Shown here piece after piece: positions 1,094 through 63,457 of a stretch of DNA of 64,000 bases. Where the stretch lies: assembly GCA_005223045.1 (NCBI GenBank), contig NJBM01000001.1:310001-374000 (forward strand). The letters are read 5' to 3'. This stretch comes from Planctomycetes bacterium B3_Pla. Its GTDB lineage: Bacteria; Planctomycetota; Phycisphaerae; Sedimentisphaerales; Anaerobacaceae. Position 1 is the stretch's first letter, and every line of letters begins with the position of its first letter. The position numbers were made by a program, and so were the translations under genes. The notes under the pieces are model-generated. The model saw only the letters and a program-made list of their open reading frames with translations. It was not told the DNA's origin and did no database searches.

Positions 1094-2158
1094 ATGTCGA
1101 TAAGCGCTATTATGAAAACCAATGGCAACAATAACAACTCGATAGCCGAACAGATGGTCATCGGCATAACAATGGGCGATGCCGGCGGTATCGGTCCGGA
1201 AATTGTTGTCAAAGCGCTTGCCGATCCTGAGATCCGCAAAGCGGCGAAATTCATCGTTTTCGGAATGAACGAGCAGCTTTGCTACGTCGCCGACGCCGCC
1301 GAGATCGAACCTTTCTGGGGCCGTCATCAGCACGAAAAGATCAACCGCGAGTACCCGTACAAAGTTGTTGTCGCCGATTATGACGAGTATTCCGTTCCGT
1401 CCTGGGTCAGAGGCCCGAGCAAATCAGCCGGGGAAGCATCCATGAGGTTCTGCGTTGATGCCATTGACGCGGCGCGGCGCGGCATCGTCGATGCGGTAGT
1501 GACGGCGCCGATCAGCAAGAGAAGCTGGAAGCTGGCCGGGTCGGACTGGCCGGGCCACACCGAGATGATCGCCGGTCAGTGCAAGTCCAAGCGGAAGGTA
1601 ATGATGTTTGTCGCCGGACCGTTGAAATTGGCGCTGGCAACAATTCATGAAGCCCTGTTCGATGTCAGGCACAAGTTTACCATCGGCTGCGTCTTCGAAC
1701 CGATAGATTTGCTCAACGACGCCCTGAAACAATACTTTGACATTGACAATCCCAGGATCGGCGTTGCCGCACTGAATCCTCATGCCGGCGAGAACGGACA
1801 ATTCGGCGACGAGGAGCAACGAATAATATCGCCCGCCCTCTTATTGGCGCAGGAACAGGGCATAAACTGTCTCGGGCCATTCAGCGCCGACACCCTCTTT
1901 TTGCGGGCCATCGAAGGCGAATTCGACGGTGTGGTCGCAATGTATCACGACCAGGGCATGATACCTGTGAAACTGCTGGACTTCGAGCGGGCGGTAAACG
2001 TCACGATCGGCATACCAATCGTAAGAACATCGCCCGCTCACGGGACGGCTTTCGACATCGCAGGCCGGAACATTGCCAATCCAGCCGGCATGAAATCCGC
2101 CATAACTACAGCAATAACAATGGCCAAAACGAAAAAGAATTTAGAAGTTAGAATTTAG
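1094..2158 (+). CDS. pdxA: 4-hydroxythreonine-4-phosphate dehydrogenase
   Basis: PdxA oxidises 4-phospho-hydroxy-L-threonine in the DXP-dependent pyridoxal phosphate pathway. The protein shows the N-terminal ITMGDAGGIGPEI (residues 25-37), GHTEMI with a likely metal-ligand His (154-159), NPHAGENG (228-235) and YHDQG (284-288). The ATG at 1094 has AAGG six bases upstream. An internal ATG at 1154 would give a shorter, more usual N-terminus, so the first 20 residues, rich in Asn, are uncertain. The last residues (NLEVRI) and the stop codon lie inside the left arm of an inverted repeat at 2137-2170. The C-terminus therefore appears to have been rewritten by repeat DNA. Confidence 0.94.
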   Translation: MSISAIMKTNGNNNNSIAEQMVIGITMGDAGGIGPEIVVKALADPEIRKAAKFIVFGMNEQLCYVADAAEIEPFWGRHQHEKINREYPYKVVVADYDEYSVPSWVRGPSKSAGEASMRFCVDAIDAARRGIVDAVVTAPISKRSWKLAGSDWPGHTEMIAGQCKSKRKVMMFVAGPLKLALATIHEALFDVRHKFTIGCVFEPIDLLNDALKQYFDIDNPRIGVAALNPHAGENGQFGDEEQRIISPALLLAQEQGINCLGPFSADTLFLRAIEGEFDGVVAMYHDQGMIPVKLLDFERAVNVTIGIPIVRTSPAHGTAFDIAGRNIANPAGMKSAITTAITMAKTKKNLEVRI

Positions 2159-2170
2159 AATTGAGAATGG
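2137..2170 (+). repeat. Left arm of AATTC-type inverted repeat around IVP-like gene
   Basis: The arm is made of GAATTTAGAA / GTTAGAATTT / AGAATTGAGAAT words. Its reverse complement, with small differences, is at 2561-2598. It covers the end of pdxA and the start codon of the next gene. Confidence 0.8.
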
Positions 2171-2550
2171 ACGACGCGCCACAGCAAAGGAATGGCCGGG
2201 AGAAGGATATCCAGAAAAGGGCGTTTTCGTTTGCGTGTCGAATTGTTAACCTGTATCGGTTCCTGGCAAAACAGAAGGGTACCGGAGAGGTTTTGGCCAG
2301 GCAGATTCTGCGGTCAGGAACATCCATCGGGGCCAATCTGGAGGAAGCAGCAGCAGGACAAAGCAGAGCCGATTTTATCTCAAAGCGCAACATCGCTCTC
2401 AAAGAAGCCCGTGAGACGCACTATTGGCTTCGGCTCTTCACAGAAACCAAAGTTGTCTCGCCCGAAAAGTTAAACGGATTACTCAACGAATCCAACGAAC
2501 TGGTCGCAATCTTGACAACTATAGTGAAGAATGCTCGGATTCCCGAATGA
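2167..2550 (+). CDS. Four-helix-bundle protein (IVP / 23S rRNA-intervening-sequence S23 family)
   Basis: This 127-residue protein resembles the four-helix-bundle family first found as ORFs inside 23S rRNA intervening sequences; avd proteins of diversity-generating retroelements share the fold. Diagnostic pieces are FSFACRIVNLYRFLA near the start, LARQILRSGTSIGANLEEA (about residues 44-62), SRADFISKRNIALKEARETHYWLRL and a final helix LNESNELVAILTTIVKNAR. I start at ATG 2167; a TTG at 2161 is possible. The molecular function of free-standing members is not established. The gene is bracketed by inverted word-repeat arms, like the stem that brackets a true intervening sequence, but it lies between pdxA and rsmA. 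No reverse transcriptase or variable repeat is nearby, so a DGR is unlikely. Confidence 0.88.
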   Translation: MDDAPQQRNGREKDIQKRAFSFACRIVNLYRFLAKQKGTGEVLARQILRSGTSIGANLEEAAAGQSRADFISKRNIALKEARETHYWLRLFTETKVVSPEKLNGLLNESNELVAILTTIVKNARIPE

Positions 2551-2560
2551 ACCCAATTGA

Positions 2561-2598
2561 CCATAAATTCTACATTCTAAATTCATAATTCTAAATTC
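2561..2598 (-). repeat. Right arm of AATTC-type inverted repeat
   Basis: The words ATTCTACATTCTAAATTC and ATAATTCTAAATTC are the reverse complement of the 2137-2170 arm apart from a few substitutions and small gaps. It ends ten bases before the rsmA start. Confidence 0.8.
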
Positions 2599-2607
2599 GC
2601 AGTTCCT

Positions 2608-3492
2608 ATGCAAACGAAGCGGCAAATCCGGCAGTTACTTTCATCGTCGGGCATTTCTCCGAACAAACGACTTGGTCAGCATTTTCTCATCGATCTGAAT
2701 CTAATGCGGCTGCTGGTCGATTCTGCGAACATTCAGAAAAACGACGTCGTGCTCGAGGTCGGCTGCGGCACGGGTTCTTTGACCGAGGCCCTGACCGAAA
2801 AAGCGGGCAGAACAATATCTGTCGAGCTTGACCGGAGCCTCGCCGGGATTGCAAGGAAACAACTCGCCGGCGCCGAGAACGTTGAGCTTATCAACGCCGA
2901 CATTCTCGAAAGTAAGAACACGTTGAGCCGGACTGTCACAGACGCATTGGCCCTTGCCCGCGTGAAACACGCCGGGCGGTTTCTGCTGGTTGCGAATCTA
3001 CCCTACAATGTCGCCTCACCCGTGATGATGAATCTGGTCACAGGCCCGACAAGGGCAGATTGCATGTATGTGACGGTTCAAAAAGAAGTTGCCGACAGGA
3101 TGACCGCCGGGCCGGCTTCCAGCGATTACGGCATACTGAGCATATTCCTGGCCGCAACCGGCGATGTAAAGACGATAAGAACTCTCAAGCCAACCGTTTT
3201 TTGGCCGCAGCCACAGGTTGACTCGGCGATGGTCGGCTTTGTCCGCGACCAGGCAAAATGCGAGCGGATTGCGAACATGGAATTGTTCAGCGAAACGGTG
3301 CATCTGTTTATGAGCCATCGCCGTAAGACTCTCTTGGCTTGCACCAAACTGGCCCGCGGCAGACTCGCCCGAATCGCCGATTGGCCCGAAATCTTCGAGC
3401 AATGCCGCATCGACCCGGCACAACGCCCTGAACAACTCAGCGCCGACGATTATGTCGCGGTCGCAGATTGCGCTGCAAATTGCCTGTTTTAG
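2608..3492 (+). CDS. rsmA: 16S rRNA A1518/A1519 N6-dimethyltransferase
   Basis: RsmA (KsgA) dimethylates two adjacent adenines in helix 45 of 16S rRNA, using SAM, late in small-subunit assembly. Visible motifs are RLGQHFLID (residues 21-29), the SAM-binding EVGCGTG (50-56) and the adenine-binding NLPYN (130-134). The 294-residue length is normal. The final 36 codons are copied a second time at 4452-4561 (see that entry). A sigma70-like promoter for the pilin array begins three bases after the stop codon. Confidence 0.96.
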   Translation: MQTKRQIRQLLSSSGISPNKRLGQHFLIDLNLMRLLVDSANIQKNDVVLEVGCGTGSLTEALTEKAGRTISVELDRSLAGIARKQLAGAENVELINADILESKNTLSRTVTDALALARVKHAGRFLLVANLPYNVASPVMMNLVTGPTRADCMYVTVQKEVADRMTAGPASSDYGILSIFLAATGDVKTIRTLKPTVFWPQPQVDSAMVGFVRDQAKCERIANMELFSETVHLFMSHRRKTLLACTKLARGRLARIADWPEIFEQCRIDPAQRPEQLSADDYVAVADCAANCLF

Positions 3493-3523: not shown

Positions 3524-3637
3524 TTTTACCAGATTACTGGGACGTAAAAATGTTGAGTTTGAAGAACAGAAGAACGGTGAGGCACATCTTCCCAAAACGT
3601 AACCAAACGTTTTTGAGGCAATTTGAAGAGTATAAGT

Positions 3638-4387
3638 ATGTATAGAAATAAAGCATTCACTTTGATCGAGCTTTTAGTGGTGATTGCTATCATAGCGATA
3701 TTGATGGCCATCTTGATGCCGACCCTAAATCGGGCCAGAGAGCAGGGCAAACGTGCGGCTTGCCTTAGCAACGTCAAGCAGTTGACACTGGCATGGATTC
3801 TGTATGCAGATGATAACGACGGCAAGATGGCCAGCGGCAACACAAGCCTCGGCGGCCACAACAAAGACGGCACATGTTGGGTATATTGGCCGGGACGGAG
3901 TGCCTCAGAAGAAGAACGAATAAAAGATATCAAGAGGGGATTGTTATTTCCATACTGTCCAAACTTAAATCTCTACAAGTGCCCGACCGGTGTGCGAGGA
4001 GAGGTGGTGACGTATGCTATAGTTGACGCTATGAATGGTCACGACGCGATACCCGGCGCTGATGGACAGATACTTAAGAACAGAGTACAGATTCGCAGGC
4101 CGGGCCAGAGGGCTGTTTTTGTCGATGAGGGCCGATTGAGTCCGTCGAGCTGGACGGTTAATTATGATAAGGAACAGTGGTGGGACGGGATTACGGTACG
4201 CCACGGTGATGGAACGAACTTCTCTTTTGCGGACGGGCACAGTGAATACTGGAAGTGGAAGGATCCACGCACCATAAAGTTCGCGCGAGGTGAAATAAGC
4301 GGCCAGTCTTCGGTGCCGGATAATCTGGATTTGTATAGAGTGCAGAAAGCTGTGTGGGGGAAATTAGGTTATACACCGAACCGTTAG
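3638..4387 (+). CDS. Prepilin-type protein, class A (H-X9-DG), array gene 1
   Basis: A type IV/type II-like pseudopilin. The N-terminus [15 protein letters not shown] has the prepilin peptidase site with Glu at +5 of the mature chain, followed by the hydrophobic helix [13 protein letters not shown]. The C-terminal part holds the H-X9-DG motif (HGDGT...[13 protein letters not shown], about residues 189-208) known from planctomycete and lentisphaeral prepilin-like families. I chose ATG 3638 over the upstream TTG at 3623 because a GAAGAG site lies 7 bases before it. The protein should be inner-membrane anchored with a periplasmic globular head. Its assembly machinery is not in the window, so its target structure is unknown. 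Confidence 0.92.
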
Positions 4388-4394
4388 CAAACAG

Positions 4395-4437
4395 GATTCT
4401 TCCTGCCTATTGTGCTGTTGGAGGAAGGAGCCTTTTT
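4395..4437 (+). terminator. Possible rho-independent terminator after array gene 1
   Basis: A CTTCCT element and a GGAGGAAG element can pair across a loop of about 17 bases and are followed by a run of five T. Pairing is imperfect, so this is tentative. If real, it separates gene 1 from gene 2, which has its own promoter copy. Confidence 0.35.
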
Positions 4438-4451
4438 AATTGACAATTGTT

Positions 4452-4567
4452 CCCGAAATCTTCGAGCAATGCCGCATCGATCCGGCACAACGCCCTGAAC
4501 GACTCAGCGCCGATGATTATGCCGCGGTCGCAGATTGCGCTGCAAATTCCCGATTTTTGGGTTGAAC
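4452..4567 (+). pseudogene. Duplicated 3' end of rsmA
   Basis: The segment matches 3385-3500 without any gap, at a constant offset of 1067 bases, and still encodes the RsmA C-terminus from PEIFEQCRIDPAQRPE onward. Only scattered changes occur (for example CAA to CGA and GTC to GCC) until the last few codons. There it reads through to a new stop, TGA at 4563-4565. It has no start or catalytic domain, so it is a remnant. The similarity continues into the following promoter. Confidence 0.93.
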
Positions 4568-4590
4568 AACGCTCTGATGTCCGGTATAAT
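4562..4590 (+). promoter_or_regulatory. Second copy of the array promoter
   Basis: TTGAAC at 4562-4567, a 17-base spacer and TATAAT at 4585-4590 lie exactly 1067 bases after the first promoter. The spacer sequence has diverged while both hexamers are kept, which argues for selection on promoter function. Confidence 0.65.
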
Positions 4591-4723
4591 GTGCTAATCT
4601 GTGGAATTACGCCAGAAAAGCATAAGAAACGTCAAATTATCCGAACATAGGGGCATAGTGGCGCATCCTAACGCTGGTAAGTGTAAGTGATTTAACATTC
4701 GTGGAAAAGTGAGGAGTATTGTT

Positions 4724-5545
4724 ATGAGCAAGCGAACGGCATTCACCTTAATCGAGCTTCTGGTAGTGATTGCTATTATCGCAATTCTGTTGGCCATTTT
4801 GATGCCGGCGCTGCGAAGAGTCAAGGAACAGGGCAAGATGATAAGCTGCATGGGGAATCTCAAACAGTGGAATATGATTGCGGCGATGCATACCGAGGAA
4901 AATGACGGCAAGTTTTGGGACTCGGCGCCGGGGACACCCGGCTACTGGTGGGTACGATACCTGGAGGAAGAATACAAGAGCTGGAAGACAAACGAGCTTT
5001 GGTTTTGCCCTTCGGGCACTAAGCCAATTATCGACAAGTATGGCAACACGGCGCCTCGTACATTAAGCATCTACAACGCATGGGGCATATTCACGGGCAG
5101 CGATCTGAGCAGGGACGGCGTAGCCGGCAGCTTCGGGATCAATGGCTACTGCCTGATACCGGCAGGCCCGAATGCGGCGACTACATACGAGGGCGGTGTA
5201 CCCGTCACGAACGGGTGGAAGACTGCCGGTGTACGCGGCGCAAGCCAGGTGCCATGGTTCACTGAGGCCCTGCGTTTTGATCTCTGGCCGCTGCCGACTC
5301 ACGCACCTGCTCAAGAGGAATTTGCGGCCTGGTCCGGCAACAACATGGCCCGTACCTGCATCAACCGACATCAGGGATTTCTCAACGCCGCCTTTATGGA
5401 TTTTTCGGTAAGAAAGATCGGCCTCAAAGAGATGTGGACACTGAAGTGGCACAGGCAATTTGACATATCGGGCCCCTGGACCAAGGCCGGCGGCGCCCAA
5501 ACGAGTAGTTGGCCGGATTGGATTAGCCGGTTCAAAGATTATTAA
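4724..5545 (+). CDS. Prepilin-type protein, class B (H-X9-DF), array gene 2
   Basis: Same prepilin N-terminus ([15 protein letters not shown]), but the body belongs to a second class: [14 protein letters not shown] after the helix, [20 protein letters not shown] near residue 218, and a Trp-rich tail ending SRFKDY. The C-terminal motif is H-X9-D followed by Phe, where class A has DG. ATG 4724 is chosen because GAGGAG lies 7 bases upstream. The periplasmic head is about 240 residues and many Trp residues are conserved among class B members (genes 2, 4, 5, 6). Confidence 0.9.
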
Positions 5546-5603
5546 GAAACGAATTGTTGCAGGAAAACATACTTTTCGGATACTGATGAGGAAAGGTGTT
5601 GTT

Positions 5604-6386
5604 ATGCGCGCAAGGAAAGGGTTCACGCTAATCGAGCTTCTGGTAGTGATCGCTATCATTGCAATTCTGATGGCGATACTGATGCCCGCGATGAGCCGGG
5701 TCAAGGAACAGGGCAGACGCTCGACCTGCCTGAGCAACCTAAGACAGTTGACCCTGGGGTGGATTATGTACGCCGACGAACACGATGACATGCTCGTCAA
5801 CGGCGATACAGGCGAGTACGGCATCCATTCGGACCAGACGCCCTGGGTGCTCGCCGACTGGCGAAGCGGGATGACCAATCGCCAGAAAATTGACGCTATC
5901 AAGAACGGAGCCATGTGGCCATACGTCAAGGAATTGAAACTTTACAAATGCCCAACCGTCACCAAGATCGTTCGCGGAGGAACGCACGAAGACATTATGC
6001 GAACGTACTCCGTGTCCGATGCAATGAACTGCAAGGATTGGTCCAGCATGAATGCCAAGATGATTAAGAAAAGGCTGGAGATTCCCAATCCGGCCTACAG
6101 AATGGTCTTTGTCGACGACGGCGGCACGATAACCTCCGCGCTTGGCGGCTGGACGGTCTATGTTACCGAGGAGAGGTGGTGGGACCCGCCACCGGTGCGG
6201 CACGGTGACGGAACAACCTTTTCTTTTGCCGACGGGCACAGTGAGTACCACAAGTGGAAAGACCCTCGCACCATCGAATTCGGCAAGCAGGTGCCTCCAA
6301 CGGCTTTCTCGCCGAACCAGCCCGGCAACGAGGATCTTCATTGGGCCGCCGTAGCTATGTGGGGTAAGGAGGCGATGCATCAATAG
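5604..6386 (+). CDS. Prepilin-type protein, class A, array gene 3
   Basis: Begins [15 protein letters not shown] with GAGGAAAGG about 7 bases before ATG 5604; the open frame extends much further upstream, but that part overlaps gene 2. The head follows gene 1 closely: [17 protein letters not shown], a [16 protein letters not shown] block, and [20 protein letters not shown] with the H-X9-DG motif. Two Cys residues ([12 protein letters not shown] and LYKCPT) are shared with genes 1 and 8 and could form a disulfide in the periplasm. Confidence 0.92.
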
Positions 6387-16153: not shown

Positions 16154-16981
16154 ATGAAATCCGAACATCGGCACGAATTAAAGACTAATGAGCTGGCCGA
16201 ATGGCTGGCCAATCTGCCGCAGTGGACGAAGGAAAATCTCGTTACGATTATATGCGTATCGGTTTTTGTTGTCGTGCTCGCAGGCTTGTACTTCTGGAGA
16301 GGCTATAGCAAGAACGTTCTGCAGGTGCGGGAACGGACCGAGCTTACGTACCTGCTCAACCAGCTATCGGGAGGCAAGGTGCAGATTCTTCAGGCGCAGG
16401 CCCAGGGAAGAGACCTGTCGTTTCTGCTGCTCCAGCCCGCCAAGGGTCTCGAAGCTTTCGCTCAGACCACGAAGAACAACCGAATGGCGGCCCTGGCGCT
16501 CATTAAACAGGCCGAAGCCCTGCGCGGCGAGCTGCATTACGGGACTGCAGAACAGTCGTACGTAACAGAGCAGATAAGCAAGGCAAAGGCCAGTTACACG
16601 CAGGCAATGGAGATAAGCTCGAACAATCCTTCGTTGGCCGCCGGCGCCAGATTCGGGCTGGGACTCTGCGAAGAAGAACTCGGCAACTTCGAGCAGGCAC
16701 GGCAGATATACCGCGACATCGTTGCCGGCGCAGGCTACGAGGGCACTGTGGCAGTAAGCCAGGCACAGCGCCGCCTGAAAATAATGGCCGATCATGAGCA
16801 ACAGATCGCTTTTAAGCCCGATCCAAACCCAAAACCCACCGTTACTTCGCAACCGCAGATAGATATAAGACCCACGACTCCCGGCCTGCCGGCAAACATC
16901 ATCCCGCCGTTTAGCATTAACCGGCCCCTCGACTTCAGTATGTTCCCCGGGGCCAACGAGCCCGCTGGGAGTGAAGAATAG
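16154..16981 (+). CDS. YfgM-like membrane-anchored TPR protein
   Basis: A 275-residue protein with one transmembrane helix (LVTIICVSVFVVVLAGLYFW, about residues 29-48) after a cytoplasmic N-terminus. A tetratricopeptide-rich region follows, with ARFGLGLCEEELGNFEQARQIYRDIV near residues 157-182. The last 60 residues are Pro-rich and probably disordered. The arrangement resembles YfgM/BamD-like ancillary proteins of the envelope. The stop codon is followed at once by a word repeat and then an RluA-family gene. Confidence 0.75.
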   Translation: MKSEHRHELKTNELAEWLANLPQWTKENLVTIICVSVFVVVLAGLYFWRGYSKNVLQVRERTELTYLLNQLSGGKVQILQAQAQGRDLSFLLLQPAKGLEAFAQTTKNNRMAALALIKQAEALRGELHYGTAEQSYVTEQISKAKASYTQAMEISSNNPSLAAGARFGLGLCEEELGNFEQARQIYRDIVAGAGYEGTVAVSQAQRRLKIMADHEQQIAFKPDPNPKPTVTSQPQIDIRPTTPGLPANIIPPFSINRPLDFSMFPGANEPAGSEE

Positions 16982-17031
16982 GGAACTGAGAATTGGGAAT
17001 TCTAAATTCTACATTCTACATTCCAAACTCC
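16982..17031. repeat. Empty AATTC-type hairpin repeat
   Basis: GAACTGAGAATTGGGAATTC is followed immediately by GAATTC-sharing inverse words (CTAAATTCTACATTCTACATTCC). It has the same two arms as the IVP cassette at 2137-2598 but nothing between them. Confidence 0.75.
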
Positions 17032-40211: not shown

Positions 40212-40580
40212 ATGAAGAAACCGGCATGGAAGGCGTTGTTTATAACAATCGGTCTTGGCGTCCTGTTGATTGCGGGCTGCGGGGAAAAAGAGCCGCCGAG
40301 CGTGAAACAGAGCAGGGTAATAGCGGCCGAGAACATTGAGCTGAAGAAACAACTTAACCGTAGCAACGCACGAATCGAGAACCTCAAAGAGCAGTACGAT
40401 AAGGAACTCGACAAGAAGCATAAACTGCTCGTAAAATGCAAACAGGAACGGGACCAGTGGAAAGCAAAGTCACAGCAGAACGTTCGAGACCAGGTAAAGG
40501 ACGTCCTTGACACCGTCATGGCGGAGAACACAAGGCTGCGCGAAGAAAACGCCATACTCAAGTCGCAGATAAAGAATTGA
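40212..40580 (+). CDS. Small coiled-coil lipoprotein
   Basis: A 122-residue protein with a type II signal peptide: ALFITIGLGVLLIAG-C, lipobox LIAGC with Cys23. The mature chain is a continuous charged coiled coil (AENIELKKQLNRSNARIENLKEQY; VMAENTRLREENAILKSQ). It is probably anchored to the outer membrane, as are Lpp-like or DivIVA-unrelated spacer proteins; the function is not known. Confidence 0.75.
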   Translation: MKKPAWKALFITIGLGVLLIAGCGEKEPPSVKQSRVIAAENIELKKQLNRSNARIENLKEQYDKELDKKHKLLVKCKQERDQWKAKSQQNVRDQVKDVLDTVMAENTRLREENAILKSQIKN

Positions 40581-40657
40581 GAATTTGGAATTTAGAATTC
40601 TCTCCATAGGGGACGCCTTACGGTGAGTTCTCAATTCTCAATTCTAAATTCTAAATT
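40577..40657. repeat. AATTC-type hairpin between convergent genes
   Basis: Left arm AATTGAGAATTTGGAATTTAG, a loop of about 25 bases, and right arm TTCTCAATTCTCAATTCTAA. It separates the convergent lipoprotein and pyrG genes and could act as a two-way terminator. Its arm words match those around the IVP-like gene. Confidence 0.8.
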
Positions 40658-40658
40658 C

Positions 40659-43304: not shown

Positions 43305-43324
43305 CTCTGTGCCCTCTGTGGCTA
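43305..43324 (-). repeat. Right copy of 20-bp perfect inverted repeat
   Basis: Exact reverse complement of 42386-42405. It includes the stop codon of kdsB (43322-43324). Confidence 0.9.
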
Positions 43325-44104
43325 TTTCTTTTTGTATCTTTTAACGAATTCGGCGTATTGTTCGGGGGTGTCTATGCCGTCGCAGGTGTGTTGGACTTTG
43401 CCGACTAAGATCGGGTAGCCGTTTTCGATTGCTCTTAGCTGCTCGAGTTTTTCGATTTTTTCCAGCGGCGTCTGCGGCAGAGTTGTTATCTCCAACAGGA
43501 ATTGCTTGCGATAAGCATATATTCCCAAGTGCCGCAGGTATTGCCGCACGTTTCCGACGCCGGCTTCTTCTCGGTCGTAAGGAATCGGTGAACGCGAGAA
43601 ATAAATCGCCCGGCCGGTTTCGTCCCTCGTCCCTCGTCCCTCGTCCCTCGCAGCGGCATCACCGCGAGCCACTATCACTTTGACGATATTCGGATCGGCG
43701 ACCTGCCCGGCGGTCTGGAAGTCTGCTGAGAGCGTGGCCATCGGGCAATCGGGGTTGTCCATAAGCAGCCTGGCGAGGTAGTCAATGTTGCCGGGATCGA
43801 TCTCCGGCTCATCGCCCTGGAGGTTGACGACAATCTCGACATCCATATCGGCAACGGCCTCGGCGATGCGGTCCGTGCCGCTCTGGTGGTCGGGCGAAGT
43901 CAGGACGCACTCTGCATCGAATGTCTTGGCGGCGGCAACGACTTTTTCGTCATCGGCGGCTATTATCACCTTCTCAGGCAGCTTAGCTAAGCACGCTTGC
44001 TCATAAGTGTGCTGGATTAGGAACTTGCCCGTATCTTTGGCGAGAACTTTGCCGGCGAATCTGGTCGAACTATAACGCGCCGGTATAACAGCTATAACCT
44101 TCAA
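43322..44104 (-). CDS. kdsB: 3-deoxy-manno-octulosonate cytidylyltransferase
   Basis: KdsB makes CMP-Kdo for lipopolysaccharide core synthesis. Motifs: MKVIAVIPARYSSTRFAGKV, HQSGTDRIAEAVADM, VNLQGDEPEIDPGNIDYLA, and AIYFSRSPIPYDRE. I start at the TTG at 44104, which has AAAGG eight bases upstream and yields the family N-terminus; no ATG fits. Between the PNIVKV strand and the AIYFSR strand there is an insertion of about 15 residues relative to the other KdsB gene. It is encoded by four 7-bp repeats (43621-43648). The insertion is in a surface loop position if the fold is normal. Confidence 0.93.
   Translation of the reverse strand: MKVIAVIPARYSSTRFAGKVLAKDTGKFLIQHTYEQACLAKLPEKVIIAADDEKVVAAAKTFDAECVLTSPDHQSGTDRIAEAVADMDVEIVVNLQGDEPEIDPGNIDYLARLLMDNPDCPMATLSADFQTAGQVADPNIVKVIVARGDAAARDEGRGTRDETGRAIYFSRSPIPYDREEAGVGNVRQYLRHLGIYAYRKQFLLEITTLPQTPLEKIEKLEQLRAIENGYPILVGKVQHTCDGIDTPEQYAEFVKRYKKK
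43621..43650. repeat. Four tandem CGTCCCT heptamers inside kdsB
   Basis: Four exact CGTCCCT copies plus CG, read in frame on the minus strand as GRGTRDEGRG-type residues. This is the pattern of short tandemly repeated repetitive (STRR) sequences of cyanobacteria, but inside a conserved gene. Confidence 0.9.
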
Positions 44105-44353
44105 TCTCAAAGCCTTTACGTCAGCAAAGTCATTCTGCCGGGTAAGTTTACATATTCAGGGAACTCAAAAGCCGCGATGCCTGTGCAAACCCGAAATTCC
44201 AACTGGACTTTCATGATAAAGAGAGGGAGCAGTATTGTCAACAGGTGAGTCGGAAATTTTGTGTTTTTGGATTATATTGTCGGCCAAAGAGTTTCTTTTC
44301 AAGAACGCGGGATTGGATTATGCTTTGTTGGCCATATATCAAGGAGCAAGTCC

Positions 44354-47064: not shown

Positions 47065-48584
47065 ATTCGCAGCAGAAGGCGGCCCGGCTTTGTATGCAGG
47101 GGGTCAGCAAACGCTTCGGGGCCACCGTCGCCCTTCAAGATGTGGGGATAGAAGTAGCCGCGGGGCAGGTTCTTGCACTGGTAGGCGAAAACGGCGCCGG
47201 CAAGAGCACGCTGATGAAGGTGCTCTCTGGTGCGATCAAATCCGATGCCGGTCGAATGTCGCTTGACGGCGAGCCGTATAGCCCGAGCAATCCGCTCGAC
47301 GCCCGGCAGGCCGGGGTGGCGATGATCTACCAGGAACTGTCCCTGACGCCGCATCAGAGCGTCCAGGAAAATATCATGCTCGGCATGGAGCCGGCAACGC
47401 TCGGAATTGTACGCTGGAAAGAAGTACGCCGGCGGGCAATCGAAGCGATCAAAGAGTTCGACAATCCGGAACTGACGCCGGACGCCCGGGTCAGGAAACT
47501 ATCGGTCGGTTCGCAACAGTTGGTGGAAATTGCACGGGCTTTGGCTATCGGTTGCCGCGTGCTGGTTCTCGACGAGCCGACCAGCAGCCTGACCCAACAG
47601 GACGTCGAGCGATTGTTCGAGATCATAGGGCGGTTGAAACAGCAGGGCAAAGCCATCGTTTACATTTCGCATTTTATCGAAGAAGTAAGGCGCGTTGCAG
47701 ATAGAGTGACAGTCCTGCGGGACGGCCAGGTGGTCGGCAGCAACGACGTCGATGCCATAAGCAACGAGCAGATAATCGCCCTGATGGTTGGCCGGCAGGT
47801 CGAGGAGCTTTATCCGAGATCGGCCAGGAAGCCCGGCGAGGTTGTTCTGGACATCAAGAATCTCGCTGGCGTCGATAAACCCAAGTCTGCGACTCTGCAA
47901 CTGCGAAGGGGAGAAGTCGTGGGTATTGCCGGGCTGATTGGAGCCGGTCGCACCGAGCTGCTGCGAAGCCTGTTCGGGCTGGATCCGGTGCGTTCCGGTC
48001 AAATCCAATTGGGCGTTTATACCGGAGAAGCATCTCCCGCCCGGCGGTGGATGCAGGGAGCCGGCTTCTTGAGCGAAGATCGCAAAGAAGAGGGTTTGGC
48101 TCTGGCGCTGAGTATTTCAGAGAACGTTACTCTTTCGAGACTCAACGGCTTTGGTCCGCTGGGCCTGGTCCTGCCGGGCAGACAGGACAGGGCCGCCGGT
48201 CGCTGGATAGAGAAGCTGGGCATACGATGCCGCGATCCGAGGCAATCGGTGTTGTCTCTGTCCGGAGGTAACCAGCAGAGGGTTGCGCTGGCCAGGCTGC
48301 TCCAGCACGATGTGGATGTGTTGCTGCTGGATGAGCCGACGAGGGGCATCGACGTTGCGGCCAAGGCGCTTATCTATCAGTTGATCGATGAGCTGGCGAG
48401 CGGCTCGCCCGCCGAAGGACGTAAGCCAAAAGCTGTATTGATGGTCAGCAGTTATTTGCCGGAATTGCTGGGTGTCTGCGACCGGGTAGCCGTAATGTGC
48501 CGGGGCAAATTGGGACCGACTCACCGGATCGACCAGACAGACGAGCACAAACTTATGCTCGAAGCGACCGGACAGAAGAATTGA
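47049..48584 (+). CDS. Sugar ABC transporter ATPase, double domain (RbsA/MglA type)
   Basis: A 511-residue protein with two ABC domains. The first has Walker A GENGAGKST, Q-loop IYQELS, signature LSVGSQQ and Walker B VLVLDEPT. The second has a degenerate Walker A GLIGAGRTE, signature LSGGNQQ and VLLLDEPTRGIDV. This asymmetry is usual for the family. Its start lies inside the binding-protein gene. Confidence 0.95.
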   Translation: MAERIDSQQKAARLCMQGVSKRFGATVALQDVGIEVAAGQVLALVGENGAGKSTLMKVLSGAIKSDAGRMSLDGEPYSPSNPLDARQAGVAMIYQELSLTPHQSVQENIMLGMEPATLGIVRWKEVRRRAIEAIKEFDNPELTPDARVRKLSVGSQQLVEIARALAIGCRVLVLDEPTSSLTQQDVERLFEIIGRLKQQGKAIVYISHFIEEVRRVADRVTVLRDGQVVGSNDVDAISNEQIIALMVGRQVEELYPRSARKPGEVVLDIKNLAGVDKPKSATLQLRRGEVVGIAGLIGAGRTELLRSLFGLDPVRSGQIQLGVYTGEASPARRWMQGAGFLSEDRKEEGLALALSISENVTLSRLNGFGPLGLVLPGRQDRAAGRWIEKLGIRCRDPRQSVLSLSGGNQQRVALARLLQHDVDVLLLDEPTRGIDVAAKALIYQLIDELASGSPAEGRKPKAVLMVSSYLPELLGVCDRVAVMCRGKLGPTHRIDQTDEHKLMLEATGQKN

Positions 48585-48686
48585 GAATTTAGAATTTGAA
48601 ATGTAGAATGACGGCACGGAACGCATAGAATGAAGATCGAAACAGGCACACATAATTCTCAATTCTCAATTCTCAATTCTGCATTC
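48581..48686. repeat. AATTC-type repeat that enters the permease gene
   Basis: Left arm AATTGAGAATTTAGAATTTG starts at the ATPase stop; right arm CATAATTCTCAATTCTCAATTC ends inside the permease coding sequence. About 38 bases separate the arms. Confidence 0.8.
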
Positions 48687-49655
48687 ACAAGCAACTGGCG
48701 GCGCTGGCTCAACACGTTTGGGCCTCTGCTGGCCTTGTCGGTGGTTTACGGAATATTCGCGTGTATCGCACCGTCGAGTTTCAGAACGCCCAGAACTCTT
48801 GAGATGATTGCGAAACACACGACCATCGTCGGCATGGCGGCGCTGGGCATGACATTAGTAATCATCTCCGGCGGGATAGATTTATCCGTCGGCTCGATCG
48901 TCGCTATGGCCACGGCGGTGATTGCAAAGCTGTTGCAGGATTACGGCGCCGGGCCGGTTGCCGCTGCGCTCGGCGGCGTCGCGGCCGGGGCGCTCGTTGG
49001 CCTGCTAAGCGGGACGCTGATAACGTCGCTTCGCGTGGTCCCGTTCATAGTCACTTTGGGCATGATGCTCATCGTCCGGGGGACCGCCAAATTGATAGGC
49101 CAGGAGCAAAAGATAGACGTCGATACCGAGAAGCTCAGATGGCTCGACGAGCTTATGGCCTCGGTCCCAAGGGGCCAGGGCTGGCCGTGGCTGCCGTTAG
49201 GCGTGTGGCTCTTGATCGTTATGGCTCTGGCGGTGGCCTTTCTGCTGCGATACACGCGCTTGGGCCGGCACATTTTCGCGGTCGGCTCGAATGAGCAAAC
49301 GGCCCGGCTGTGCGGGGTAGTGGTGTGGCGCGTCAAGGTAATGGTCTTTATGCTGTGCGGCGCCTTTGCCGGCTTAGCGGGACTCATGCAGTTTTCCAGG
49401 CTCACGGTCGGCGATCCGACCGTAGCGGTCGGCCTGGAGCTTGATGTAATCGCAGCAGTGGTAATAGGCGGCGGCAGCCTGTCCGGCGGCGAAGGTTCGG
49501 TCTTAGGCACGCTCGTCGGGGCACTGATTATGACCGTCATAGCATCGGGCTGCACGCAGATGGGACTGCCGAACTACTGGCAGGAAATCATAACAGGCGC
49601 GATCATCATCGTAGCCGTAGCGCTCGACCGCCTGAGACACCGCCGAGCTGCGTAA
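48630..49655 (+). CDS. Sugar ABC transporter permease (RbsC type)
   Basis: A 341-residue membrane protein with eight to ten hydrophobic segments. Family markers are GMTLVIISGGIDLSVGSIVAM (near residue 73), AVGSNEQTARLCGV and GGGSLSGGEGSVLGTLVGALIM. The first 20 residues before the usual start (MKIETGTHNSQFSILNSAFT) are translated repeat and lack a ribosome site. The true start might be later, but no good alternative is seen before the first membrane helix. It ends the three-gene operon. Confidence 0.92.
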   Translation: MKIETGTHNSQFSILNSAFTSNWRRWLNTFGPLLALSVVYGIFACIAPSSFRTPRTLEMIAKHTTIVGMAALGMTLVIISGGIDLSVGSIVAMATAVIAKLLQDYGAGPVAAALGGVAAGALVGLLSGTLITSLRVVPFIVTLGMMLIVRGTAKLIGQEQKIDVDTEKLRWLDELMASVPRGQGWPWLPLGVWLLIVMALAVAFLLRYTRLGRHIFAVGSNEQTARLCGVVVWRVKVMVFMLCGAFAGLAGLMQFSRLTVGDPTVAVGLELDVIAAVVIGGGSLSGGEGSVLGTLVGALIMTVIASGCTQMGLPNYWQEIITGAIIIVAVALDRLRHRRAA

Positions 49656-52389: not shown

Positions 52390-52677
52390 ATGATTGTCGG
52401 GGTAATGACAGCTAATTTGTCCATGCAGGGGATAACTTCGCTCAAGGGTAAGAGGAGCATCGTCAAGAGCGTGATCGGGCGTCTCAAGAGCCGGTTCAAT
52501 ATCTCAATCTCGGAGGTCGATCATCAGGACAGCAAGGCAAGCGCTGTTGTTGGGATAGCAATCGTCAGCAACGACGCTCAGTTCATAGACCGGCAGTTTG
52601 ACGCAATCATAAGTTTCATGCGCAATGACGGCCGATTCTATCTCGGGCAGATCGAAAGGGAAACCTTTGGAATTTAG
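52390..52677 (+). CDS. DUF503 family protein (YlxP-like)
   Basis: A 95-residue protein with the family landmarks MIVGVMTANLSMQG at the start, SLKGKRSIVKSVIGRLKSRFNIS, VDHQDSKASAVVGIAIVSND and IDRQFDAIISFM. In many bacteria it sits with infB and rbfA, but not here. Function in ribosome assembly is suspected from context elsewhere. The start ATG overlaps an ATCGAG-word repeat. Confidence 0.9.
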   Translation: MIVGVMTANLSMQGITSLKGKRSIVKSVIGRLKSRFNISISEVDHQDSKASAVVGIAIVSNDAQFIDRQFDAIISFMRNDGRFYLGQIERETFGI

Positions 52678-52735
52678 AATTAGGAATTTGGAATGTAGAA
52701 TTCTAAATTCTCAACTCTACATTCTTAATTCTCAA
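52668..52735. repeat. AATTC-type hairpin between convergent genes
   Basis: GGAATTTAGAATTAGGAATTTGG meets AATTCTAAATTCTCAACTCTAC directly, with no cargo. It lies between the stop of the DUF503 gene and the stop of the next membrane-protein gene. It covers both stop codons. Confidence 0.8.
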
Positions 52736-54974: not shown

Positions 54975-55125
54975 GGGAACCAGGTTATCAGGTTATCAGG
55001 ATGTAAGCGATCAGGGTCTCAGGGAATCAGGGAATACAGCAACCCCGATAGACGTGCATCGGGGGATGCACCTGATATTCTGATAACCTGATAACCACTA
55101 CCTGATAAACTGATACCCTGATGCC
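54975..55125. repeat. ATCAGG-word hairpin repeat
   Basis: AGGTTATCAGGTTATCAGG and further ATCAGGG words on the left face CCTGATATTCTGATAACC and CCTGATAAACTGATACC words on the right. It lies between purF and purM and can form a long imperfect stem in the transcript. Confidence 0.85.
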
Positions 55126-56581: not shown

Positions 56582-56663
56582 ATTCGCATTGCGTATATCG
56601 TATTGCGTGATGCGTATTGGCATTCCTCTTTTTCGCAATACGCAATACGCACGACGCATCACG
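56578..56663. repeat. GCGTATTGCGT-word hairpin upstream of purF
   Basis: GCATTGCGTATATCGTATTGCG words are followed by CGCAATACGCAATACGCACG words around a short AT-rich centre. Same family as 16064-16140 and 19268-19330. Confidence 0.85.
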
Positions 56664-56690
56664 AACATTTTGCAATCATATCAAATCAAT

Positions 56691-62332: not shown

Positions 62333-63457
62333 ATGGGAAATAACAGACTTAACGCATTGCCGATTTGTGACAATCGAAAACCGAAAATCGAAAACCGAAA
62401 ATACATTCGGCAACCGTTCATAGCCGCAACCTTTGTGCCTTTGTGCCTTTGTGCCTTTGTGCTCTTTAACCTGAGTTGCAGATCCAAGAGCACTGAGGAA
62501 TCCAAGGCCGATAAATCCGAACCTAATGCCGTTGCTACATCGGTCGCCGACGATGTTGCCGTTACGGTCAACGGAGTCGATATCCTCCGGAGCGAGGTGG
62601 AAAAGCTCATCAGGCCTCAGCTTGATGCGGTGGCCGAACAGGCCAGACAACAGCCGCCCCAGGTGCTTGCGCAAATCGCCGCCCAGTTCAGACAGGAGAC
62701 CCTGGAACAGCTCATCCGCAGGCAATTGCTGGACGGAAAGATACAGCAGTCCAACATCATAGTCACCGACGAAGAGGTAATGAGCCAGATCCGAGAGATT
62801 GCCTCGGCCCAGGAATTGTCGGTGGAGGATTTCTTCAAGACATTGGAGCAGTACGGCAGCAGTGCTGAGGAAATAAAAGAGGACGTTCGCAGAGGACTTT
62901 CACGCAACAAGTTCATGGAAATCCAATGGGCGGGCAAGATAAACGTCACAGAAGACGATGCGAAGCAGTATTACGACGAGAAACCGGAGCGTTTTAGAGT
63001 GCCCGAGCAAGTCAGAGTCAGCCATATCCTCATTACACCCGAAGCCGGCGCCGATCCAAACGAGGCCCAAGCAAAGGCCAGGATAAAGAGTGAAGATTTG
63101 CTCAGACAAATCAAAGGCGGAGCAGATTTTGCCGAATTAGCCAGGACCAATTCTTCCTGCCCGTCAGCCCCGGATGGCGGCGATCTGAACTTCTTCCCAA
63201 GAGGTAAGACAACACCGGCTTTTGAGAAGGTAGCTTTCGAGTTGGACATCGGGCAGATGAGCGACGTGGTGGAAACCGAATTCGGGTACCACATAATAAA
63301 AGCCACCGGCCACAAAGATCCAAGTGTCATTTCGTTTGAGCGGGCTAAGGACAGGATAATAGCACAGCTAACGGCACAGAAACAGTCTGCATTCGCCGAA
63401 AACTTCCTCAAGACGCTCAAGGCCGAAGCTGAAATAACCTATCCGTCAGGCCAATAG
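62333..63457 (+). CDS. Parvulin-type peptidyl-prolyl isomerase lipoprotein (PpiC/SurA-like)
   Basis: A 374-residue protein. A SurA-like N-terminal helical domain spans about residues 60-200 (VAVTVNGVDILRSEVEKLI). The parvulin domain follows: VRVSHILITPEAGADPNEA, IKGGADFAELARTNSSCPSAPDGGDLNFFPRGK and FELDIGQMSDVVETEFGYHIIKATG. It should help fold proteins outside the inner membrane. The signal region is odd: residues 13-24 come from CGAAAA-type words, and the hydrophobic core (TFVPLCLCAFVLF) comes from four exact 8-bp CCTTTGTG repeats. FNLSC may serve as a weak lipobox. Earlier start codons are absent, so this signal seems real. Confidence 0.88.
   Translation: MGNNRLNALPICDNRKPKIENRKYIRQPFIAATFVPLCLCAFVLFNLSCRSKSTEESKADKSEPNAVATSVADDVAVTVNGVDILRSEVEKLIRPQLDAVAEQARQQPPQVLAQIAAQFRQETLEQLIRRQLLDGKIQQSNIIVTDEEVMSQIREIASAQELSVEDFFKTLEQYGSSAEEIKEDVRRGLSRNKFMEIQWAGKINVTEDDAKQYYDEKPERFRVPEQVRVSHILITPEAGADPNEAQAKARIKSEDLLRQIKGGADFAELARTNSSCPSAPDGGDLNFFPRGKTTPAFEKVAFELDIGQMSDVVETEFGYHIIKATGHKDPSVISFERAKDRIIAQLTAQKQSAFAENFLKTLKAEAEITYPSGQ
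62372..62401. repeat. AATCGAAAACCG words inside the PpiC-like gene
   Basis: Two alternating copies of AATCGAAAACCGAAA, encoding NRKPKIENRK. They resemble the words at 21121-21182. Confidence 0.8.
62430..62461. repeat. Four tandem CCTTTGTG octamers encoding a signal peptide core
   Basis: Four exact 8-bp copies. Because 8 is not a multiple of 3, the reading frame cycles and gives Phe-Val-Pro-Leu-Cys-Leu-Cys-Ala in 24 bases, all hydrophobic. Confidence 0.95.

Follow-up and report, generated by a model that had tools for sequence, protein, structure and literature searches.

An IVP gene between inverted heptamer arrays at a pdxA-rsmA junction: one copy of a candidate small mobile cassette

A short gene framed by inverted word arrays lies between pdxA and rsmA

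The window analysed here is a stretch of 64,000 nucleotides from Planctomycetes bacterium B3_Pla (contig NJBM01000001.1, positions 310,001 to 374,000). Near its start, a short gene of the IVP/S23 family (2167-2550) lies between pdxA (1094-2158; PF04166) and rsmA (2608-3492; PF00398), all three on the plus strand. The IVP gene encodes a four-helix-bundle protein of 127 aa when read from its ATG, and the frame is also open from an alternative TTG start at 2161. Its left arm (2137-2168) is an array of the 7-nt words GAATTTA, GAAGTTA, GAATTTA and GAATTGA, ending in GAAT, while the right arm (2567-2598) repeats the reverse complement of the left-arm word GAATTTA, with a periodicity that spans 2564-2598. 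The two arms, also read on the plus strand, are 32 nt each, are separated by 398 nt and are 84% complementary, which bears out a preliminary description of this DNA, where they were called near reverse complements around a four-helix-bundle gene. From end to end the element measures about 462 nt (2137-2598).

The element is fitted closely to its neighbours. The pdxA stop codon TAG (2156-2158) falls inside the left arm, which also reaches the IVP start codon, and rsmA begins 9 bases past the end of the right arm. When pdxA is compared with the empty junctions of relatives, its last codons and stop are seen to come from the left arm, as the preliminary description had held in saying that the arm replaced the pdxA stop region. 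That description had also proposed folding the 2137-2598 region, and in the predicted RNA fold the arms indeed pair around the ORF (z = -2.9). At this locus (L003) the arm-complementarity score, which compares the 130 bases upstream of a gene with the 130 bases downstream, is 23, compared with 16 for the best of 276 control genes.

The protein is a clear family member, matching PF05635 (23S_rRNA_IVP) with an E-value of 3.5e-23 (82 bits; curated cut-off 33.8) and NCBIfam TIGR02436 with 2.8e-27 (95 bits; cut-off 24). To our knowledge, IVP/S23 proteins ('four helix bundle protein'), although present in many phyla, have had no known function so far. The solved relatives of the window protein are PDB 2rld and 2gsc, the latter a pentamer of four-helix bundles according to the passages of PMC4990558 and PMC3936711 that cite Lin et al. 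(2006). Searches of the sole ORF of the cassette against Pfam, NCBIfam and PHROGs gave no transposase or recombinase, and no nuclease was recognised in the cassette. We also considered an anti-phage defence gene and rejected it, as PADLOC-DB gave no match. Comparison between loci indicates that the protein is kept by selection: dN/dS was 0.05-0.13 in the pairs where it could be computed, so that it is under strong purifying selection.

Matched word arms accompany IVP genes in many phyla

Our main sample comprised 94 IVP loci in 41 genomes belonging to the order of the window genome; 90 of the loci were usable for scoring. The preliminary description had looked to the IVP genes of relatives for the same framing, and it is there: 62% of the 90 loci reach the arm threshold of 16, compared with 0.4% (1/276) of control genes from the same group (Mann-Whitney p 1e-27 for the scores). 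About 30-40% of IVP loci stay below the threshold, with arms that are short, decayed or farther off. When the left arm of one locus was paired with the right arm of another, only 3.3% of such mismatched pairs reached 16; the arms are thus locus-specific, and one conserved arm sequence for all loci is ruled out. The flanks carry a period of 7, with a lag-7 match of 0.43/0.40 vs 0.24 within the ORF and further signals at lags 14 and 21. The word itself differs from locus to locus, and its period is sometimes 6, 8 or 9.

A similar picture emerged from a wider sample, where 71% of 80 IVP loci from about 15 phyla reach the threshold, the groups including Nitrospirae, Desulfobacterota, Bacteroidota, Acidobacteriota, Clostridia, KSB1, WOR-3 and CPR. 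Here arms were found at 56/73 IVP genes vs 23/227 other genes of the same loci. Most genomes in the species set are draft metagenome assemblies. IVP copies on cyanobacterial plasmids are framed by word arms as well. The genes are placed in a characteristic way: they are co-directional with both neighbours in 118/145 cases vs 114/229 for control genes (Fisher p = 3e-10), and the arms abut the neighbours, the median distance being -2 nt on the side of the upstream stop and +4 nt on the side of the downstream start.

Two single loci may be recorded here. On the Pseudanabaena plasmid pPg_01 (L228, 2004-2363), the cas6 and cas4 genes of a type I-D CRISPR locus are separated by an IVP cassette whose long arrays are of the AAAAGCT type, and at another locus (L290; G137 C1:594893-595645) two tandem IVP genes, 95% identical, are preceded, separated and followed by arrays that all use one word.

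The arm word goes with the IVP lineage

For 76 pairs of IVPs that are at least 65% identical and occupy non-orthologous sites, arm similarity was 16.4, compared with a permutation mean of 9.0 and a maximum of 10.4 over 1000 permutations. The coupling extends across phyla: in 68 cross-phylum pairs with an identity of 55% or more, arm similarity was 12.3 vs 9.4 under within-phylum permutation (p = 5e-4); the clearest sharing of a word is between L145 of Nitrospirae, L147 of Desulfobacteraceae and L146 of KSB1. Over the full range of identities a Mantel test of IVP identity against arm similarity was not significant (r 0.05), the signal being confined to close pairs. Close IVP relatives, in other words, have words in common and distant ones do not.

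At orthologous sites, the arms of one locus match each other better than they match the arms of the same site in another species (19.2 vs 14.5, p = 2e-9), and the two arrays therefore change together. At sdhA-IVP-sdhB of Bacteroidota, for example, the words differ by species and the arms match inside each species. The cause is either selection on pairing or the use of one arm as template for the other. Comparison of loci thus shows that the word is tied to the IVP lineage, and that species differ in their word with no loss of match between the two arms. In a tree built on few columns, the IVPs of one orthologous site mostly form one clade, and a cassette can therefore persist long after its arrival. 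Indeed, the gene looks largely vertically inherited at several sites, such as sdhA-sdhB in Bacteroidota and next to a nifU-like neighbour in six genera, a pattern that is more host-like than selfish.

Inverted arrays also occur without the gene

The preliminary description listed cargo-free versions of the arms near 16982, 40577, 48581 and 52668, and inverted arrays of a TAGAATT-type word were found at all four: a hairpin with zero loop at 16976-17023, an intergenic pair with a 28-nt spacer at 40573-40658, a pair at 48577-48687, and an intergenic near-perfect palindrome at 52666-52735. Two further gene-less pairs, built of other words, had been missed. The one at 54981-55120, intergenic, uses TATCAGG, as does the resident IVP L002, and the one at 56586-56666 uses GTATTGC, the type of word found at the resident IVP L001. 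The word AATTTAGAAT is thus one of dozens, each cassette lineage having a word of its own.

Statements about whole genomes rest here on pattern counts and fetched stretches. Three copies of TAGAATT (a 21-mer with at most 3 mismatches) give 104 overlapping matches in the window genome, compared with 4 for the reversed control, and GTATTGC gives 205 overlapping matches in this genome, which has five IVPs; the counts are not element numbers, because a single array may be matched several times. In 41 genomes, IVP gene density correlates with the density of three words (rho 0.67; 0.58 within the family), and the median number of array matches is 1.5 in six IVP-less genomes vs 28 in IVP-bearing ones. 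Array counts also follow the word of the resident IVP for the three words, with p = 1e-4, 0.02 and 0.05, the last, borderline value being that of the window's own word.

Other arrays were seen in the window. A TCGTCCC heptamer array at 43620-43650 lies within a predicted ORF on the minus strand (43322-44110), and an IVP with this word was not seen in the genome. At 62375-62462, two arrays of different words adjoin each other, one of CGAAAAC/CGAAAAT and one of the 8-nt word CCTTTGTG.

Junctions with, without and partly with the cassette

The preliminary description had weighed the possibility that the order pdxA-IVP-rsmA is ancient, and the relatives speak against it: in most of them pdxA and rsmA overlap or lie a few bases apart, and arms are absent. 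Arms together with an IVP occupy this junction in three genera (G000, G009, G015). Arms of the AATTTAGAAT type without the gene are found in G019, G014 and G045, and G007 has the right arm only; in G041 and G048 the junction holds arrays of other words.

The rny-ymdB junction presents a comparable series. The window genome has a full cassette there. In its congener G001, both arms are present along with the ribosome-site region of the IVP and its first codons (score 25, the shuffle maximum being 17), a second congener, G002, retains a remnant of about 16 nt only, and G020 has nothing. Because the IVP start region is retained, we read the arms-only state in G001 as a deletion and not as a target. 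At both junctions the flanks are too diverged for a target-site duplication to be read.

Three other arrangements were observed at rny-ymdB. One locus (L235, G009) has arms, built of a 9-nt word (GTGACTAAA type), that enclose no gene but about 150 nt of other sequence, and another (L234, G015) has a long non-repetitive hairpin (CCCGCACCCACTTTGGC ... GCCAAAGTGGGTGCGGG). In L236 (G018) and L237 (G011) there are two short genes that by eye, with no profile, resemble a HEPN/MNT nucleotidyltransferase pair; we did not count them as kin of the cassette because there is no clear matching right arm.

A further trace of movement comes from a single genome (G066), in which two IVPs, L281 and L282, are 94% identical at unrelated places. 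Their homology covers 454 nt at 88% identity, starting and ending in the arrays, and the flanks are unrelated. More generally, IVP presence is patchy, with 98/197 genomes of the phylum carrying 1-22 copies, and insertions occur in unrelated contexts that include plasmids and a type I-D CRISPR locus. A search for a phage vector gave no match among 50,697 phage records. Some IMG/VR contigs do carry armed IVP genes; these contigs may be host DNA. Comparison thus shows that array, IVP and array are gained, duplicated and lost as a block, and that arms-only remnants can arise by internal deletion. The preliminary description had spoken of autonomous, gene-bearing forms and empty ones. Both forms exist, and at least one arms-only copy is a product of internal deletion; that the gene-bearing form moves by the agency of its own IVP is something we only infer.

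A probable mobile cassette with a proposed word-reading protein

Taken together, the data are best explained by a small mobile cassette of which 2137-2598 is one copy, with lineage-specific word arrays around an IVP that acts on its own word, a joint reading to which we give a probability of roughly 0.6. The cassette by itself merits more confidence than this, and the mechanism less. In the mechanism that we propose, the arms would fold into a hairpin, and a ring of IVP subunits would recognise repeats of its own word in the single-stranded DNA or RNA of the hairpin arms. The word-bound protein might then help host enzymes to copy the cassette or place it at gene junctions; host enzymes are invoked because the cassette has no recognised nuclease or transposase. 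That the insertions lie between co-transcribed genes points to a step linked to RNA or transcription. Slippage and hairpin-templated repair would account for the continued match of the two arrays.

A different and rather unlikely account takes the arrays to be independent intergenic palindromes, with the IVP gene homing into arrays of its own word and the arms-only sites being its targets. In its favour, array matches far outnumber the five IVP genes of the window genome, and the account sits well with array counts that track IVP number and with the sharing of words between similar IVPs. It is harder to reconcile with the arms-only copy at rny-ymdB of G001, where the start of the IVP is retained, with the many empty pdxA-rsmA junctions that have no arms at all, or with the homology limits of L281 and L282, which fall in the arrays.

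Less probable still, to our mind, is that the arm stem is a host RNA device, a domesticated and non-mobile structure that isolates or processes a useful IVP within operons, for instance through RNase III. The excess of co-directional insertions, the pairing of the arms in the predicted RNA, the purifying selection and the retention at one site across genera would all suit a device of this kind; its patchy presence, the copies within one genome, the arms of other words at the same junction and the insertions into contexts as unrelated as plasmids and a type I-D CRISPR locus would not. We strongly disfavour the idea that AT-rich, weakly palindromic junctions grow arrays as a mutational by-product of slippage and hairpin repair, with the IVP incidental, because, although the word repeats look slippage-like and the arms change in concert, only 1/276 control genes reaches the arm threshold and the words track the IVP lineage over sites and phyla.

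The mobile cassette with a word-reading IVP could represent a categorically new class of transposase-less mobile element, spread over many phyla, in which a four-helix-bundle ring reads a lineage-specific arm word and directs insertion between co-directional genes, with the 23S intervening sequence as a special case; we put this generalisation forward tentatively, at somewhat short of even odds. We know of no mechanism ever given for the rRNA intervening sequences with an IVP, which have been called selfish. Should free-standing IVP genes prove to be the gene-bearing form of a mobile cassette that has no transposase, the family would gain a role and would be linked to unexplained intergenic heptamer arrays of bacteria. 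Each IVP would then be predicted to prefer its own word, and the lineage-varying pairs of protein and word would make up a natural collection of proteins, about 120 residues long, that read nucleic acids in a sequence-specific way.

Comparison with known elements

The nearest known kind of element is the IVP-bearing 23S rRNA intervening sequence (IVS) of Coxiella, Leptospira and Brucella, which has the same protein family, an ORF looped between complementary ends and a sporadic distribution. The Coxiella IVS is of similar size (428 nt vs about 462 nt for the window cassette) and has three tandem heptamers, GACAGAT, just upstream of its ORF (PMC4990558). The window cassette shares the layout of an ORF within complementary, stem-forming ends; we do not file it as a 23S rRNA IVS because it lacks the defining location, and no 23S signature words were present in any of the loci covered by that test. 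In contrast to the IVS, the cassettes described here lie between protein genes, have cassette-specific word arrays and leave arms-only remnants. Moreover, the present IVPs are under purifying selection, whereas the ORF in Coxiella has been described as decaying and as unlikely to be expressed.

Heptamer arrays have been reported before. Published cases include TAACTGA arrays in Beggiatoaceae, Cyanobacteria and Bacteroidetes and GGGAATC heptamers of Xanthomonas, with 70 inverted pairs in X. campestris (PMC4679880, PMC4692102); S23/IVP is not mentioned in the searched text of either paper. Like the arms, these arrays and the cyanobacterial STRR consist of tandem 7-nt words in intergenic positions, sometimes as inverted pairs, but they are families of one or a few words, whereas here there are many words tied to IVP lineages. 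In the open-access literature, with preprints and most subscription journals falling outside, we found no work tying IVP genes to matched word arms or heptamers.

REP palindromes with their RAYT, and MITEs with their IS, likewise combine a gene-bearing form with many gene-less intergenic palindromes, the arms being specific to the protein lineage. The cassette resembles such transposase elements in its terminal inverted repeats and gene-less derivatives; it differs from them in having no recognised transposase or recombinase, and in arms that consist of word arrays and have no single fixed sequence. IVP genes have also been noted in cas loci (PMC3936711), which fits a mobile cassette. The homology of the four-helix bundle to Avd of diversity-generating retroelements is treated in PMC10053308. 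We ruled out that the window IVP is an Avd, as it has no Avd match and its neighbours are pdxA and rsmA, not a reverse transcriptase. The resident IVP L001 did match the NCBIfam Avd model (E 2.4e-8, 34 bits), under the cut-off of 80, and also PHROG 3206.

As a minor observation elsewhere in the window, three successive genes at 3623-6386 share one type IV pilin-like start signal.
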